Part shown: positions 29,835 through 58,221 of the stretch, piece by piece
Layout of the letters: the number at the start of each line of letters is the position of its first letter
Position numbering within the stretch: the first letter of the stretch is position 1
From: a virus
Direction: 5' to 3' (one strand)
Virus record (IMG/VR): IMGVR_UViG_3300010354_000088
Span: 1 to 63,218 of that record
Length of the DNA: 63,218 nucleotides
The notes under the pieces: generated by a model
What the model saw: only the letters and a program-made list of their open reading frames with translations
Told to the model about the DNA's origin: nothing
Databases searched by the model: none
Translations under genes and position numbers: made by a program

Positions 29835-32186
29835 TTAAATAGTTCCAGGAGTAACTCCGTTTTCTTGAATAGGTGTAACTAATTTAGAAGGATCAAAATT
29901 ACCGCCTGTAATAGCATTAATTCTTTGAACTTCTTCGGGAGTAAGCTGATCAGGAGTATTTAAAGCTTTTCGATAAAGCTGTTCGTTAATTTGACCTGCT
30001 TTATATCCTTGCTCAAGAGCCTTCATTCCAAAATCAGCATTAACATAATTTCTAAATCCTTTTAATCCAGATTCAATATTTTGACTTAATGCCTGACCTT
30101 TCATAGCTCTAAACTTAAATCTGTTTTCAGCATCCTGAAGATTAACATTTTGAATGTTCTGAAGATTAAGAAGATTAGCCTGATTAGTCAATTCTGTATT
30201 ACGATAGTTAAGCTCATTTTGCATTTGCTGCATTTTAGCTGCTCTATCTATTTGATTTTCAAGCTGATTAGCCTGAATAGCTGCATTTGTAGCAGGTATT
30301 TGATTTACATTACGAGCATTATATCGTGATGTAGCTCCTACTTTTTGAATTTGACGATTCATAAATTCATCCAAAGCACCAAAATCAGCAGTATATTTTT
30401 CAGGACGATACATCTGAGGTCTTGGCATTGGAGTATATTTTTGCATCATATTATAAAGAGCCTGACCACCTGCACCTACTGTATTAGCAATAAGAAGATT
30501 TCTATTCATTTTTTTAAAATCTTCAGGCAATCCTGTAGTTGTGCTAGTTTCAGGTGTTTCAGCAGTAGGCTGCTGATTATTTCTCATATTAATTTCTCTT
30601 TCAGAAGAATAATCGGGATCATTAAGTTGAGCTTCTTCTTCTTTACGCATAGCTTTCATTTCTGATGGACTATAATTTTCATCACGATATTGTTGACTAC
30701 GCATATTATTATACCACCAATCGGCTATCCCTCCATCTGCATGTCCTTCTTTAGCTTTTATTTTACGCTCCTGCTCAAGCATTTCTTTTGTAGGTTCTTT
30801 TCCGGAACCTTTATTTGCACGCATATTATCCCAAAGACCTCTGCGTGAATATGAGCCATCAGCACGTTTAATCATTTCTCCGCCTTGAGAATATTCATCA
30901 TTATTGGGGCCACCATTTTTAAATCTTCCCATAGCAAATAATGTAGGACTAAGCTTTTGCTTATTCATAACATTATGCTGTTCGTTTACATATTGATTAG
31001 TTCCTTGGCTATCCCATTCTGAAGATTCATTTTCAGACATGTAATCTCCTTTATAGTAACGATTATGAGGACTATTTGGACTAAGAGTTTTTTCCCAATC
31101 GTGCTCTGTCATCCCCATATCTAATTGAAGATCTTCTTTTACATCAGGAGATATATACATTTCTTTTGAAGATATACGAATAGGAGTACCTCCTTGCTTA
31201 GCACCAGGAACCATTGTTTCTAACTCTTGATATGGATCATATCCTGATTGCATAAGCATTTGTTGAGCTAAAGGAACACGGTTTGCCGGAACAATAAAAG
31301 CACCATCTTCTGCCAATAAGTTTTTATCATCAGCAGTTGGACTTCCATTTCCAGGAATAATACCATATTCATCTTCCATGTCTCCACCTTCTGCATATCC
31401 ACCCATAGAATATGGAGCTGATGAATTATTTAATATGGCATCACGTTCAATAGAATACCCTATACCACCACCGTCAGCATGTTTTAATTCAGGATACTTA
31501 GCATATACTTTAGCTTTTACATCACTACGACCATGAAGACCAGCAAGACGTAAAGCATCAACCGCATCGGCTTTAGTTGGAATAGGATAAGAACGATTTC
31601 CTCCGGCAAAATCTTTGCCTTTTACCATAGGATACGGTTTCTTTTCAGATCCATAATCTTTAGATCTTGAAAGTCCACCTTCTTTATAAGCCTCAGATTC
31701 TCCGCCACCTTGCTGATTATTATTTTCATCCATCTGAAACTGAGAAGGATCATCTCCAAGCATTTTCCAAATAGGAACTTTGCCTCCATTAGCAAAGTTA
31801 CCTTGCATGTAACCAGTTTCTGTATTATAAGGAGATGCTTGACGTTGCTGTTTTTTTACAGCTTCACCCATCATAGCATTTACATCGTAACTATTATCCA
31901 TAGCACGATTAAACTTCCATGCATCAATAGCTAGTCCAGCTACAGGAGCAATAGCAGCAGAAAGACCTCCTGTAGCACCCATAATAGCTGGATTTAATCC
32001 AATAGATGTAAGTTGTTTTGTAGTAGAAAGATCGGCTTGAGGGCCCTGCATCATAGGCATTTGCGGTTGCATCTGGTTGGGCATAACCATGCTGCCATTA
32101 GCATATTTTTTCTTAGGCAGATTTCCACCTGCCATATAATACAAATTAGCCATGTAAAATAATTTTACTTTATCTTCTGGTTTCAT
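29835..32186 (-). CDS. Probable cargo virion protein with repeated GG motifs
   Basis: A 783-residue protein. The N-terminal third has a hydrophobic Ala/Gly-rich segment (GATGGLSAAIAPVAGLAID, about residues 53-72) that could insert in a membrane. At least eight short motifs ending in Gly-Gly preceded by an acidic or Asn residue are scattered through it (for example FANGGK, YKEGGL, HADGGG, YAEGGD, FKNGGP, HADGGI). One segment reads LLAEDGAFIVPANRVPLAQQ. The C-terminal 250 residues are Gln/Asn-rich and predicted helical. Its ATG overlaps the ferritin stop by four bases. The position between muzzle/ferritin and polymerase matches crAss-like cargo proteins that pass down the tail with the DNA. The role of the GG motifs is unknown. 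Confidence 0.55.
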   Translation of the reverse strand: MKPEDKVKLFYMANLYYMAGGNLPKKKYANGSMVMPNQMQPQMPMMQGPQADLSTTKQLTSIGLNPAIMGATGGLSAAIAPVAGLAIDAWKFNRAMDNSYDVNAMMGEAVKKQQRQASPYNTETGYMQGNFANGGKVPIWKMLGDDPSQFQMDENNNQQGGGESEAYKEGGLSRSKDYGSEKKPYPMVKGKDFAGGNRSYPIPTKADAVDALRLAGLHGRSDVKAKVYAKYPELKHADGGGIGYSIERDAILNNSSAPYSMGGYAEGGDMEDEYGIIPGNGSPTADDKNLLAEDGAFIVPANRVPLAQQMLMQSGYDPYQELETMVPGAKQGGTPIRISSKEMYISPDVKEDLQLDMGMTEHDWEKTLSPNSPHNRYYKGDYMSENESSEWDSQGTNQYVNEQHNVMNKQKLSPTLFAMGRFKNGGPNNDEYSQGGEMIKRADGSYSRRGLWDNMRANKGSGKEPTKEMLEQERKIKAKEGHADGGIADWWYNNMRSQQYRDENYSPSEMKAMRKEEEAQLNDPDYSSEREINMRNNQQPTAETPETSTTTGLPEDFKKMNRNLLIANTVGAGGQALYNMMQKYTPMPRPQMYRPEKYTADFGALDEFMNRQIQKVGATSRYNARNVNQIPATNAAIQANQLENQIDRAAKMQQMQNELNYRNTELTNQANLLNLQNIQNVNLQDAENRFKFRAMKGQALSQNIESGLKGFRNYVNADFGMKALEQGYKAGQINEQLYRKALNTPDQLTPEEVQRINAITGGNFDPSKLVTPIQENGVTPGTI

Positions 32187-32746
32187 TTAAAGTCAAGATC
32201 AAGGAATCTCATAGCCATCTTATCTTCACCAAATGTTTTAAGCTTATCCATGTAATTTTGGACTTTACCCAATTCTTCTTGTTGCTCTTGCATATATTTC
32301 ATAGCAAGTTGATAAAGAAGATGATTGTTATATTTTAAAGAATGCCCAGCTAAAGCATTACATTGCTTAGTCACATTTATTTCATGTGAAAAAGTCATTT
32401 TAATTATTTCTGGAAATCCCTCAAAATTTTGAGGAGGCTCATTTAAACTTGGAATTTTAGGCTGAATGCCCATGTCCAAAAGAAAATCTTTAGCCCATTG
32501 AGCATGTTTCATTTCATCTTCAGCATCTTCTTGCCATTTTTTTGCAGCATTTAAATAACCATTGTCATTTAGCCACATAGACATAGAATGATACATACGA
32601 GAAGAATATTCTTCTTGCTCAATTCTATAATTCAACAAATCTATACATTCTTGAGAAAGAAGATTGTTGTTTTCTGTGTATTGCTCTTTTGGAGTGGCAG
32701 ATCCGCCTTTTTCTTCAAAAACAATTTTAGAGTTGTTGTCTGACAT
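32183..32746 (-). CDS. Ferritin (non-haem, FtnA type) encoded in the tail module
   Basis: A 187-residue protein. After a charged 28-residue extension it aligns by eye over its whole length with bacterial ferritin FtnA. All ferroxidase ligands are present: Glu46 (EEYSS, equivalent to FtnA Glu17), Glu78 and His81 (AEDEMKHA; Glu50, His53), Glu122 (SHEINVT; Glu94), and Gln155 and Glu158 (QEQQEEL; Gln127, Glu130). Third-site positions carry Asp77 and Glu154. Ferritins oxidise Fe2+ with oxygen or peroxide and store it in a 24-subunit shell, which also limits Fenton damage. It abuts the muzzle gene by one base and overlaps the cargo gene, so it is co-expressed late with virion proteins. It could protect phage DNA late in infection, hold iron, or be packaged; no virion-targeting signal is apparent apart from the N-terminal extension. 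Confidence 0.9.
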   Translation of the reverse strand: MSDNNSKIVFEEKGGSATPKEQYTENNNLLSQECIDLLNYRIEQEEYSSRMYHSMSMWLNDNGYLNAAKKWQEDAEDEMKHAQWAKDFLLDMGIQPKIPSLNEPPQNFEGFPEIIKMTFSHEINVTKQCNALAGHSLKYNNHLLYQLAMKYMQEQQEELGKVQNYMDKLKTFGEDKMAMRFLDLDFK

Positions 32747-32747
32747 C

Positions 32748-35700
32748 TTATTGATAGCTTATACGGAAATCCGTTTTAACTGATTTAACAAAAATAGACT
32801 TATTGGTTAAATATTCCAATGAAGATTTCATCCAAAATCCTCTCATAGGAGAATTTACACCATAGATATTGTTAGTTGTATTTGTAATAACCTGTGCCCT
32901 TGCAACAGGCCCCTTCCATCGGCTTTCACGATAATGCGGAATTAAATGCCGAGAAGCTGCTGACTGAACAAAAGGAATCTGTAAGGTATATTGAAATAAA
33001 GTCTCATATGAAACAGATTTTGGATCATCTGGGCCTGAAACAATTACAAAAGAGTCAAATATTTTAGTAAAATCAGAATATTGATTTACATACCAACCAA
33101 TCCTAAAAGGCTTTAAAACGCCATAAAATGTGGTTTTGTTATCCAAATTAGATGTTGTAACGTCAACATTTTCTAACCAGCAATCCCCTAAAATACTGTA
33201 ACTTGTTGATTGAGAAGGGAATATATTAGGATTAAATGTATGATAATCATTATTTATAGACAATACAAATGGAGATCCATTATCGTATTTATCTAAAAAT
33301 GCATCAATCCATTCGCTATATCTAACGCAACTGTTTACCCTTGGGTTTTCTACAGTTTGATCAAACATGAAATTAAATACAATCTCGTTGTATTTTTTAT
33401 CATATCCAGCACAAATACCGCCTTTACAAACTGGATTATCCGGTATAGTATGAATAATATCAGAATGAGAACCTAAAAATCCCTGATCTATAATATTAAA
33501 AAGCTCCTGCCTGTAACTTTTATTATCAGATAAAAGCTCTAAAGCTCCTCCAGCAATACGCCATATTTTACGACGAATAGCATCAATACCATAAGCAGCA
33601 TTGTCTGTTTTAACTATTGACCACTGATGTTGAGATCCGTAATTGTCAGTTATATTTTTAGCTTTTTGAGCTAAAACATCTCCATTGCCAATTAAAAGTT
33701 CTCCGGCAGAAGCTCCTTGACCAATCATAGCTCTATCATTTACATAATGATAGTTTATGCCTCTATCCTGCACTGATATTAAATATGCATTTAAATCAAG
33801 GATTTTATTAATTGGCCCCATTCTTAAATCATAATCTCTATATGATCCAATCTGGATAGTTTTATATCCATCTGTAAATGCATTTGGAGTATGAAGATCA
33901 GAATAGATTATTCTTGTTGGAAAATGAACGCTTCTGTATGGAACATTAGAATCGTATCCAAATTGACCATTTATTGATAATACTTGATTGTATCCTAAAT
34001 TAAAAGAGTCAGATTCAAATACATTGTTGTTGTAAGCAAAATCAACAAAGTTGGTTATTCCCGTTACAGGATAATAAGTATTGCTGCTTGTATCTGAACG
34101 CATAGCAGTATTGTATGCATTTTCAGTAACAAAACTTGCTATATGACCAAATGTGTAATAATTACCATAATCATCTTGTTGTGATGTTGAATACACATCT
34201 GGATTGTAAAAAGTCTTTATATAAGTTCTTTGTAAAAAACAATCTCCTTTGTAATATACAGTTCCATTGACTATTGCAGAATAATTAGCCAAATCAATAA
34301 AAGTTGATATTTTGTAATACTCCGTATTTTTTACATCGTATTGATCTGTAATAACATAACCATTTGCAGGATCTGGATCTTTTGAATATATATTTATCAA
34401 AGCCTTATCGTAACTTCCAATACCAGGAACTGCAACACTTGAATTATCAATTCCAATATATCTTGTTGTTGCAAAAGTTCTATTTTTAATAGTAAGGCTT
34501 GAAGAATTTAATGGCCCGGTATATTTAAAATAAAAAAATCCATTAGGATCTGATTCATTTACAGCTTCGTCATAAAGACTTACAAACGTAGAGTTTGGTA
34601 TAGGTTGCCATTCTTGAATGTTGTATGCTTCAGGAATTTCACGCTCTTCAAGTGCAGCATTAATACTTACAGCATTAAACAAGAAAGAACAATTATGATC
34701 TCCAGGGCTTCCAGCTACAGATGTATAGCCAATATCAGCCATCTTATACATTACATAAGATGAATCTGTAAATGACTTTCTAAAAAATAAATCAGGAGAA
34801 AAGAAACCATATTTATTATTTACAGTTCCAGTGCCTACAGGATAAACAAATTTATTAAATGGCCCTGCCAAGGGATTACATTCAGCCACCAAAGGATATA
34901 GTGTACTAAATGAAGGAAATACATTAGTAGCTCTTAAAACAGGACTTGAACTTCCAAGTGGAGCTTGTACGCAATTAACACCAGACCAAACATAAAATTC
35001 AGGTGTTTCTGGATCAAGAATTGCTGCATCATATGTAGGAACAGTAACTCCTTGATAAAGAAGATTCCTATTTCTTTCGCCTCTTGTAAAGTAAAAGCCA
35101 CATATATTATCATTCATCCATTGAGTTACAATGCAAGATGTAACATCAAACTTAACACCCATAATACTGAGTGTATTTGATAATTGCTGTAATGGAGATT
35201 GCTGTGGATTTGCTGAACAAGAAGGAAATCTAAGAATACCTTGATTGTTTAATACAGTAATGCCAGGATCAAACCATGCATCATAGCCACTTACAGGAAA
35301 AGGCTCTGTTTCTCGACCTGATTTATGAACAAATACTACAGCAAAAGGATATGCTTCAGATCTAAAATAACCTGTATTAGAATATGTTTTTTGATAATCT
35401 TTATACTGTCCGTAAGGAGGAACAGCATCAACTATACTAAATGGCTTATCTTGAACCTGAAGTGTATCATCAGGTTTAGCAATAATAGCATTAGCAAAAG
35501 ATAAAAGATCAGGATGAAACAAATTTCTTGTTCTTACGTTTCCTGCAAAAAATCTATTTTCAAGCTGAGTAATGCTTTTTACAATATCATTTGGACTTTT
35601 CTTTGATATGATTTCTTCAAATGTGAAATCAACAACCTGCTCACATCCTGTTATTTTAATTTGTAAAGTAGGAGAATTAGGATTGATGTCAAATAATTTG

Positions 35701-36611
35701 TCATATAATCCAGTTTCAAATGTTCCGTCAAAATATCTTACATATGCTATCTCAAGATAAGGATATGTAGTATCAAGATTACTTAAATCAAGAATGACTG
35801 ATTTTGATGTTTGAACTGTACTTGGATCTCCATCTATAATAATCCCAGCACCTATTGGATCTAAAAATATTTCTATTGCATTAGATTCCCCTAAGAAACT
35901 GGTAGGATTAAATGAAGTTGTATTGTAACGTATAAAATAAAACCAGTTTCCGGCTTTATGACATCCATCTTCATCCAAAGTCATTGTATCAACAATTGGA
36001 TGAGCACATGTTTCATTTAAAAGCTCAATGCCATTAGGAAAACTGCCATTATAATAAAGCTTATTATTGCAAATTCCATTTTGATCAAATCCTGAATTAA
36101 TTGAACGTATAGGATTTTTAAAATCTGTCCAATAAAGATTTACAGAATCATCATAATCTATTCTTGCAAAAACTTCTATTTGATGCTCACAATCGAAATT
36201 AAAAAGATTTGTTCTAAAATCTAATCTTGGAGCATTAGGATTTACAAGAGGATTTATTGTTCCGGTGTAATTATTTAATGGACGATATACATGATCAAAA
36301 CCACCTGAGCCGCAAGAGTTGTTTAAACCTCTTTTAGGTGATGGATAAGTTCCGATTTCACCTATATTTTGAAATGTATTATATGAAAATATGTATGCTA
36401 TTCCATTATATTCACAATACCCTAAAGGAATAAATCCCTGAGTAAGAGAAAAAGCCTGTTCGTTACCTCCAATATTAGTTGCAACAAACCCTTGCCCTTC
36501 TATGTTTAATAGTCTTATATTAAGACCATCTCTTAACCTTGTAGTGGCTATTTTTGTTGGATCAGAATCTTTATCTATCCCTTGATAAAACTCATTTATC
36601 TGATAAGCCAT
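32748..36611 (-). CDS. Muzzle/tail stabilisation protein
   Basis: A 1287-residue protein. It begins MAYQINEFYQGIDKDSDPTKI, followed by RDGLNIRLLN. This 'GID.D..P.......DGLN.R' start is characteristic of long podovirus tail-tube/stabilisation proteins (P22 gp10/T7 gp12-like), including the crAss muzzle protein. The rest is beta-rich with Tyr, Asn and Ser, as expected of beta-propeller and insertion domains, and there is no catalytic motif. It follows the ring-type proteins and precedes the cargo genes, the position of the muzzle gene in crAss001. It should form the distal tail barrel through which DNA and cargo leave. I am confident of the tail role and less so of exact equivalence. Confidence 0.78.
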   Translation of the reverse strand: MAYQINEFYQGIDKDSDPTKIATTRLRDGLNIRLLNIEGQGFVATNIGGNEQAFSLTQGFIPLGYCEYNGIAYIFSYNTFQNIGEIGTYPSPKRGLNNSCGSGGFDHVYRPLNNYTGTINPLVNPNAPRLDFRTNLFNFDCEHQIEVFARIDYDDSVNLYWTDFKNPIRSINSGFDQNGICNNKLYYNGSFPNGIELLNETCAHPIVDTMTLDEDGCHKAGNWFYFIRYNTTSFNPTSFLGESNAIEIFLDPIGAGIIIDGDPSTVQTSKSVILDLSNLDTTYPYLEIAYVRYFDGTFETGLYDKLFDINPNSPTLQIKITGCEQVVDFTFEEIISKKSPNDIVKSITQLENRFFAGNVRTRNLFHPDLLSFANAIIAKPDDTLQVQDKPFSIVDAVPPYGQYKDYQKTYSNTGYFRSEAYPFAVVFVHKSGRETEPFPVSGYDAWFDPGITVLNNQGILRFPSCSANPQQSPLQQLSNTLSIMGVKFDVTSCIVTQWMNDNICGFYFTRGERNRNLLYQGVTVPTYDAAILDPETPEFYVWSGVNCVQAPLGSSSPVLRATNVFPSFSTLYPLVAECNPLAGPFNKFVYPVGTGTVNNKYGFFSPDLFFRKSFTDSSYVMYKMADIGYTSVAGSPGDHNCSFLFNAVSINAALEEREIPEAYNIQEWQPIPNSTFVSLYDEAVNESDPNGFFYFKYTGPLNSSSLTIKNRTFATTRYIGIDNSSVAVPGIGSYDKALINIYSKDPDPANGYVITDQYDVKNTEYYKISTFIDLANYSAIVNGTVYYKGDCFLQRTYIKTFYNPDVYSTSQQDDYGNYYTFGHIASFVTENAYNTAMRSDTSSNTYYPVTGITNFVDFAYNNNVFESDSFNLGYNQVLSINGQFGYDSNVPYRSVHFPTRIIYSDLHTPNAFTDGYKTIQIGSYRDYDLRMGPINKILDLNAYLISVQDRGINYHYVNDRAMIGQGASAGELLIGNGDVLAQKAKNITDNYGSQHQWSIVKTDNAAYGIDAIRRKIWRIAGGALELLSDNKSYRQELFNIIDQGFLGSHSDIIHTIPDNPVCKGGICAGYDKKYNEIVFNFMFDQTVENPRVNSCVRYSEWIDAFLDKYDNGSPFVLSINNDYHTFNPNIFPSQSTSYSILGDCWLENVDVTTSNLDNKTTFYGVLKPFRIGWYVNQYSDFTKIFDSFVIVSGPDDPKSVSYETLFQYTLQIPFVQSAASRHLIPHYRESRWKGPVARAQVITNTTNNIYGVNSPMRGFWMKSSLEYLTNKSIFVKSVKTDFRISYQ

Positions 36612-57120: not shown

Positions 57121-57376
57121 TATGTACAACTCATATAAAGAAATAAATGACCTTGAATCTGAGGTCAAGAAATATACAGATACAAAGATTATGTCTCTAA
57201 TTGAAAAAGAATCAGAAACATTCCAAGTATATGTAGAGAAAATTAGAGCTGAAATATTTCAGAGAACAGGAGATATTACAGTTAGCGTGCATGGACAAAT
57301 AGCTGATGAGATACATTTAATTGTATTAAAAGAAGTATCAAGGCGATGGGTAATACTAAAAGAATGCATCGAGTAG
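57121..57376 (+). CDS. Small helical protein upstream of the radical-SAM gene
   Basis: An 84-residue, highly charged, helical protein (MYNSYKEINDLESEVKKYTD..., VSRRWVILKECIE). The region KIMSLIEKESETFQVYVEKI and the following residues look like a continuous helix able to form a coiled coil. In-frame starts also exist at 57044 and 57077, but both would overlap the preceding small gene, so I prefer 57121. It overlaps the radical-SAM gene by 31 bases, so the two are probably co-translated. It could be a partner of that enzyme; no motif proves it. Confidence 0.45.
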
Positions 57377-58221
57377 ATAGAAAGTCTGTAATTATACGTC
57401 CTAGTGGTCGCAGTACAGATTATATATCTCCCAGCTTTGGATATGGATGCGTGTTTAATTGCAGCTATTGTTATATGAAAAGACATAAACCAATAGGTCT
57501 TGACATAGCGGACAATACAGAACACATACTGTCTGAAATATATAGCCATTCTATGTTTGCTGATGTATCTAAGCCAAATCAGACACATGAGAAATATATC
57601 ACATATGATATCTCATGCAATGAAGATTTCTCAGCTCACCTTAAATACCATAACTGGAATAAGATATTCAGGTTCTTTATGGATAATGACCATATTATGG
57701 GCAGCTTTGCCACTAAATATGCCAACAAAGACCTGTTGTTCTTTAATCCTCAACGTAAGATAAGGGTAAGAATGAGTTTGATGCCTCAGATATATTCACA
57801 TGCATTAGAACCAAACACAACTAGCATAAAGGATAGAATATCATTCATCAACAGCCTTTATGAAGCTGGATATGATGTGCATATTAACTTTTCTCCTGTA
57901 ATAGTTTATGATAATTGGCTTGAACACTATGAACAACTGTTTGTGGATGTAAACAAAATAGTCAAAGACAATTACAAAGAACATGTTAAAGCAGAAGTCA
58001 TATTCCTGACTCACAACAAGAACAAACATGAATACAATCTGAATAACAATATCTCCGGCGAATATCTATTACATAATCCTGATATACAGGAAGACAAGAT
58101 ATCTCAATATGGAGGTAATAACATCAGATATAAAGCTTCTCTAAAAGCTAAATACATTAAAAGCTTTATTGATATTCATGATAAGATTATTCCTTGGAAC
58201 AAAATAAGATACATCTTTTAA
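57346..58221 (+). CDS. Radical SAM protein, spore photoproduct lyase-like (SplB/COG1533)
   Basis: A 291-residue protein. C35-x3-C39-x2-C42 in FGYGCVFNCSYCYMKRH is the radical-SAM iron-sulphur motif in the form typical of the spore photoproduct lyase group (GC...C.YCY). YDISCNED places Cys91 49 residues after the last cluster cysteine, close to the spacing of the hydrogen-donor cysteine in Bacillus SPL (Cys97 to Cys141). VHINFSPVIVYDNWLEHYEQL matches the SPL family segment with consensus 'h.DP.I.Y..W...Y..L'. Family enzymes use a 5'-deoxyadenosyl radical to reverse a thymine dimer in DNA; some relatives have other substrates. The protein lacks the longer N-terminal region of sporulation SPL. 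A role in phage DNA repair or base chemistry is inferred. Confidence 0.8.
   Translation: MGNTKRMHRVDRKSVIIRPSGRSTDYISPSFGYGCVFNCSYCYMKRHKPIGLDIADNTEHILSEIYSHSMFADVSKPNQTHEKYITYDISCNEDFSAHLKYHNWNKIFRFFMDNDHIMGSFATKYANKDLLFFNPQRKIRVRMSLMPQIYSHALEPNTTSIKDRISFINSLYEAGYDVHINFSPVIVYDNWLEHYEQLFVDVNKIVKDNYKEHVKAEVIFLTHNKNKHEYNLNNNISGEYLLHNPDIQEDKISQYGGNNIRYKASLKAKYIKSFIDIHDKIIPWNKIRYIF

Follow-up and report, generated by a model that had tools for sequence, protein, structure and literature searches.

The virus record analysed here (G000, 63,218 bases, covered in full by the stretch that we call the window) carries a ferritin gene among its virion genes. The encoded protein has the fold and the complete ferroxidase ligand set of FtnA, and it belongs to a clade of ferritins that is found in the virion operons of many crAss-like phages and that, judged by sequence comparison, is under purifying selection and passes from phage to phage. 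We consider it probable, though by no means certain, that the protein is a catalytically complete ferritin of the 24-mer type, which would be produced late in infection by this mobile crAss-like clade and would sequester Fe(II).

Ferritin gene and its surroundings

The gene is an ORF of 187 aa on the minus strand (32183..32746) with ATG as its start codon. Residues 35-171 of the product match the Pfam Ferritin model PF00210 (E=9.9e-20), and a sequence search of the PDB gave the V. cholerae ferritin 3qz3 as the best match (1.3e-21). The NCBIfam model for non-heme ferritin, PRK10304, was matched with 5.4e-20 and 72 bits. As this is far below the equivalog cut-off of 178 bits, the protein is regarded as an FtnA-type ferritin outside that equivalog family. 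A monomer was modelled by AlphaFold2 on the basis of 25 aligned phage members, with a mean pLDDT of 89.2. The model shows five predicted helices (32-61, 65-91, 111-138, 142-172 and 176-185), which form the four-helix bundle and, with the last one, the C-terminal E helix of FtnA-type ferritins. It superposes on 3qz3 (Z 24.9, rmsd 0.9 A, 159 residues) and on E. coli FtnA, 1eum (Z 24.3, rmsd 1.1 A, 158 residues aligned). The initial annotation had described a complete ferritin gene with an intact order of helices, and ORF, Pfam match and model bear out both points.

It had also listed all six ferroxidase ligands of FtnA as present. Given as equivalents of the FtnA residues, which we take to be E17, E50, H53, E94, Q127 and E130, these are E45 (32612..32614), E78 (32513..32515), H81 (32504..32506), E122 (32381..32383), Q155 (32282..32284) and E158 (32273..32275), all encoded on the minus strand. 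At the third iron site, the window protein has D at FtnA position 49, and the equivalents of E126 and E129 are kept. On sequence grounds, the window ferritin is catalytically complete. Bacterioferritins have E127/H130 in place of Q127/E130, and identity with this family was ruled out by Q155 and E158. Dps proteins do not have an E helix and form their ferroxidase site between subunits; the predicted E helix and the full ligand set within one subunit ruled out this identity as well. Compared with the FtnA proteins 1eum and 3qz3, the window protein thus shares the five-helix fold, the full ferroxidase set and the Q/E pattern, but it is only 28-31% identical to them in structural alignments, stays below the equivalog cut-off, has an added N-terminal tail and falls into a separate, long-branched clade.

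This tail (residues 1-30; 32657..32746, minus strand) has no FtnA counterpart and a net charge of about -2. In the AlphaFold2 model it is a coil of low confidence (pLDDT ~50-60), and the most similar structures start only at model residues 29-30, so that the 28-residue extra N-terminus noted at the outset is real. The first 28-30 residues are probably an added and, according to the model, disordered tail.

Directly upstream of the ferritin gene lies a gene for a muzzle protein of the crAss001 gp44 type (32748..36611, minus strand; PF25731, 3.4e-57), and directly downstream, with an overlap of 4 bp, a gene for a gp45-like cargo protein 1 (29835..32186, minus strand; 58% identity over 93 aa to crAss001 gp45). 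In crAss001, gp44 is the muzzle, which forms the tail tip, and gp45 is cargo protein 1, which was detected in virions (PMC10172136). The position between muzzle and cargo genes was thus assigned correctly from the start, as were the junctions of one to four bases, which are a gap of 1 bp on the muzzle side and an overlap of 4 bp on the side of the gp45-like gene. However, 17 of the 25 junctions in this block are 12 bp or shorter. Tight junctions therefore show operon membership and nothing beyond, and we rejected them as a special feature of the ferritin gene. A scan for promoters and terminators did not find sites in larger numbers than in shuffled sequences. The GC content of the ferritin gene is 0.321, and that of the neighbouring genes is 0.319 and 0.366.

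Besides PF25731, the window phage has Pfam matches to PF24228 and PF25702, and PHROG models for head, portal and terminase were matched too. Its crAss-type muzzle, ring proteins, MCP, portal and TerL identify it as a member of the Crassvirales. Two other genes of the window deserve mention. A 291-aa protein (57346-58221, plus strand) matches a family of radical-SAM DNA repair proteins, spore photoproduct lyase (PF20903, 4.5e-21), here in a crAss-like phage. A single ORF of 6690 aa (7753-27825, minus strand) occupies the cargo/RNA polymerase position and contains an AAA_30 ATPase match (8.3e-9) within its first 2608 residues.

A clade of ferritins in phages

Viral contigs were scanned with queries seeded from the ferritin clade itself. 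The window protein as query yielded 6 loci with 69-70% identity, a 7-row profile yielded 51 loci, and with a 25-row profile at least 107 relatives were confirmed among at least 600 candidate stretches, of which 80 were kept. The 173 loci examined contain 82 distinct ferritins, or 81 without the truncated L050; this set of 81 includes the window and is used below unless stated otherwise. At least 80 further distinct ferritins of the window's clade are thus present in viral contigs. The initial annotation had named confinement to a single assembly as a point that would speak against it, and the occurrence in dozens of other phage contigs shows that the gene is not limited to one assembly. By the same token, its description as an unusual feature of a single phage has to be revised: the gene recurs in dozens of contigs of crAss-like phages at varying sites, but the embedding in a virion operon stands.

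Loss of metal ligands had likewise been named as an adverse outcome, and the alignment of the 81 members shows none: the equivalents of E17, Y24, E50, H53, E94, E126, Q127, E129 and E130 (FtnA numbering) are kept in 81/81, including all six ferroxidase ligands of the window protein. FtnA position 49 is occupied by E in 56 members, by G in 17 and by D in 8. In 11 of 12 ferritin pairs dN/dS was 0.04-0.16 (the twelfth pair had no usable dS), which indicates that the phage ferritins are under purifying selection. All of the 25 clade members tested match phrog_16594, a PHROG family that carries no function annotation and that is therefore probably this ferritin family or one near to it. A tblastn search of 50,697 phage records with the window ferritin gave no match at 1e-3, and searches with two other clade members gave 4 and 5 records at 24-27% identity, two of which (L187 and L188) were included in the trees described below.

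A tail of at least 10 residues precedes the core in 76 of the 81 ferritins. Of these tails, 72 carry a net positive charge and 3 are neutral overall; the single one with a net negative charge is that of the window ferritin. The tails differ by site class, and five members beside giant proteins are almost tailless. In a ferritin cage, the N-termini point outward. A basic motif of the KRP type near the N-terminus was observed in 19/81 ferritins and in 1/1247 other ORFs of the same loci, the one exception being a 397-aa protein (L110, 19322-20512). As the motif was picked post hoc, occurs in members related to each other and is absent from the window protein, we rejected KRP as a general packaging tag and keep it as a lead.

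For comparison with cellular ferritins, members with at least 85% identity were collapsed to 57 phage representatives. A first comparison set consisted of 15 ferritins (13 from a plasmid collection and 2 from unverified phage records), and a second one of 19, with 4 added from bacterial genomes. The phage representatives were split from the 15 and from the 19 comparison ferritins with a support of 100/100 in each case, with long branches across the split in the larger tree. Phylogeny, proposed initially as a check, places the window ferritin with the phage members. Identity of the comparison ferritins to the window is 24-32%, and to no phage representative does it exceed 38%. This suggests that the clade is phage-only; since the comparison set is small and contains no Bacteroidota chromosomes, and since the scans were self-seeded, it does not amount to proof. 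A scan of genome contigs for exact matches to peptide patterns from the window protein found only L088, a protein of a Bdellovibrionaceae MAG, and the genome of L088 gave no match to the clade profile at 1e-3. The profile matched 12 of 144 genomes of the phylum to which this MAG belongs, and the best four of the 12 fell on the cellular side when added to the tree. The ferritins of two unverified gut phage records, L187 and L188 (MT838721, MT836766), fall among cellular ones, that of L187 next to Phocaeicola; these records therefore likely contain host sequence.

Gene sites and movement between phages

To describe the sites, the neighbours of 81 distinct non-window ferritins (L050 included) were compared with a virion reference set of TerL, portal, MCP, adaptor, muzzle, ring, gp45-like and giant proteins, in which the adaptor and giant proteins are themselves ferritin neighbours. 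A virion-related protein was found at 79 of the 81 loci, the nearest one always on the strand of the ferritin and, at 69 loci, within 26 bp of it. The nearest virion gene encodes an adaptor at 45 loci, a portal at 24, TerL, a giant protein or a muzzle at 3 each, and the MCP at 1. The labels of the adaptors and of the giant protein in L054 derive from PHROG matches, and that of the giant protein in L169 only from BLAST clustering with the one in L054. At the two remaining loci, L051 and L052, no match to the reference set was found, and their upstream giant proteins cluster with that of L054. At least five kinds of ferritin site can be distinguished: portal, head-tail adaptor, muzzle, giant internal protein and upstream of TerL. 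The carriers are crAss-like where this was checked: L036, L118 and L156 have MCPs that match the crassvirus capsid of Pfam, the portals of L036 and the window match the same PHROG, and the crAss muzzle of L042 is recognised by Pfam. The ferritin of several portal-site phages is followed by a LysM/YkuD (L,D-transpeptidase) protein (e.g. L017, 8701-10575), whose length varies from ~180 to 920 aa in relatives.

The muzzle/cargo site is common only to the window and L042/L132 among the loci examined. In L042/L132, muzzle, ferritin and gp45-like gene have the same order as in the window, the muzzle is only 22% identical to the window's over 320 residues, and the ferritin branches elsewhere in the tree; when the records of L042, L054, L055 and L051 were searched with the muzzle of the window, one of the four matched. 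Four records of relatives reach past the end of the muzzle gene, and none of the four has a ferritin there. Two have a gp45-like ORF in the next position, one has an unmatched ORF of 808 aa, and one has an ORF of 333 aa with a gp45-like one behind it. Conservation at the same locus, proposed initially as a check, is thus seen in the repeated order of L042/L132 but not in these four relatives.

Comparison of whole phages shows that ferritin and core genes do not share one history. L011 has a ferritin 70% identical to that of the window, with TerL, portal and MCP at 36%, 28% and 24%. L071 has a ferritin of 52% identity, located upstream of TerL, with TerL, portal and MCP at 60%, 46% and 73%. L061 is closer still in its core genes (TerL 72%, MCP 81%), and ferritin is absent from its 65-kb record. 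The high ferritin identity to a phage with an MCP identity of 24%, together with the absence of ferritin from a phage with an MCP identity of 81%, indicates that the gene moved between phages. The window ferritin clusters with those at portal sites in the smaller tree (98/96) and in the larger one (100/97), apart from L071 and L048. We conclude from these comparisons that the ferritin lineage passes from phage to phage. Only 2 of 30 records of MCP relatives contain a ferritin, most of these records being short fragments, which suggests that the gene is dispensable in this lineage.

Possible roles of the phage ferritin

In the reading that we favour, the clade moves from phage to phage and settles in virion operons, and the ferritin would be made late, together with the particle proteins. 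During the breakdown of the host and the packaging of the phage genome, its cages would oxidise free Fe(II) and store it, so that phage DNA and virion proteins would suffer less damage from iron. The variation at FtnA position 49 of the third iron site and the low number of ferritins among records of MCP relatives count against this reading. The invariant ligands and the purifying selection argue for real iron chemistry, and the virion-operon sites argue for production alongside the particle proteins. Due to the same invariance (81/81), a retired enzyme with no function in the particle beyond a structural one is improbable, even though the gene is placed among structural genes; as several ferritin ligand residues serve metal binding only, we rejected a purely structural role. 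We give even less credence to an assembly chimera or a recent capture from a host chromosome than to any other alternative. The exact junction of the window is found in this assembly only, and the four relatives without ferritin at the muzzle end would fit such an origin. However, phage genes with coupled frames lie on both flanks, the GC content agrees with that of the neighbours, an independent contig (L042/L132) repeats the gene order, and the nearest relatives are phage ferritins, while the comparison ferritins are only 24-32% identical to the window. Independent contig, flanks and GC content together led us to discard the chimera.

It is possible, though on the unlikely side, that the ferritin is instead a component of the virion. 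The outward tail would then dock cages or subunits to the portal, adaptor, muzzle or packaged DNA, and ferroxidase or iron may travel with the particle, perhaps to be ejected like gp45. The neighbouring portal, adaptor, muzzle or giant virion genes are consistent with this, as are the tails of at least 10 residues in 76/81 members, net positive in 72. Moreover, the crAss001 cargo proteins come from the same gene block (PMC10172136), and mass spectrometry of a Vi01-like phage revealed a predicted ferritin (PMC10892097). On the other hand, the window has the single net-negative tail of the 76, tails vary between site classes and are almost missing in the five members beside giant proteins, and packaging does not follow from gene order alone. 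Size also matters: cargo room in crAss001 is given as ~0.4 MDa in the tail zone and ~5.1 MDa in the capsid zone (PMC10172136), so that a 24-mer of ~528 kDa would exceed the former and fit the latter. We are doubtful about the more general proposal that Crassvirales and their kin have a mobile virion-operon ferritin lineage of their own which is loaded by its tail into or onto the particle, with the virion carrying an active iron cage. That the iron of a virion ferritin engages iron-uptake receptors of the host at entry, as in the "Ferrojan horse" idea raised for the Vi01-like ferritin (PMC10892097), seems very improbable. The ferritin gene of the window does follow that of the muzzle, whose product is the tail tip, but most members adjoin head or neck genes rather than tail-tip genes, and hosts deficient in TonB and FeoB were reported to be infected like wild type (PMC10892097).

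Ferritins and ferritin-like proteins have been described in other viruses. In the available text of PMC10892097, gp217 of the Vi01-like phage Sajous1 is a predicted ferritin encoded beside a tail completion gene, with peptides found by mass spectrometry. It resembles the window ferritin by description, but belongs to another phage group and rests on a Phyre2 prediction with a template of 22% identity. Gratiaviridae and other gut phages of Bacteroidota encode Dps and manganese catalase, enzymes of the ferritin-like superfamily (PMC8008677). These belong to other families, whereas the window protein has the ferritin E helix and the FtnA ligands. Giant viruses encode a ferritin as the window phage does, but they infect eukaryotes, and their ferritin is considered an iron-nutrition gene and not a virion-operon gene (PMC7136201, as far as available). 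A structure search of BFVD gave five matches at E 0.001 or better with 15-22% identity. Separately, with weak E-values (0.014-0.05), ferritin-like folds appeared inside annotated prohead proteases of uncultured Caudovirales (A0A6J7WIS1, A0A6J7XDU5, A0A6J7WPK9), which may be ferritin-like domains fused to capsid proteins. In the open-licence PMC literature, which leaves subscription journals and bioRxiv outside, we found no report of a ferritin in crAss-like phages. The word "ferritin" has 0 occurrences in the available text of a crAss genome survey (PMC7886860), and the available parts of PMC9611531 and PMC11780533 name it solely in connection with a pithovirus-like transcript and within a reference.

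The phage ferritin is thus a known enzyme, one of the best-studied proteins, in a new lineage and a new setting. That a conserved, mobile clade whose active site is complete occupies virion operons suggests that iron control is a selected trait of late infection in these phages. The finding also suggests a function for phrog_16594, and the presence of iron in crAss-like virions becomes directly testable.
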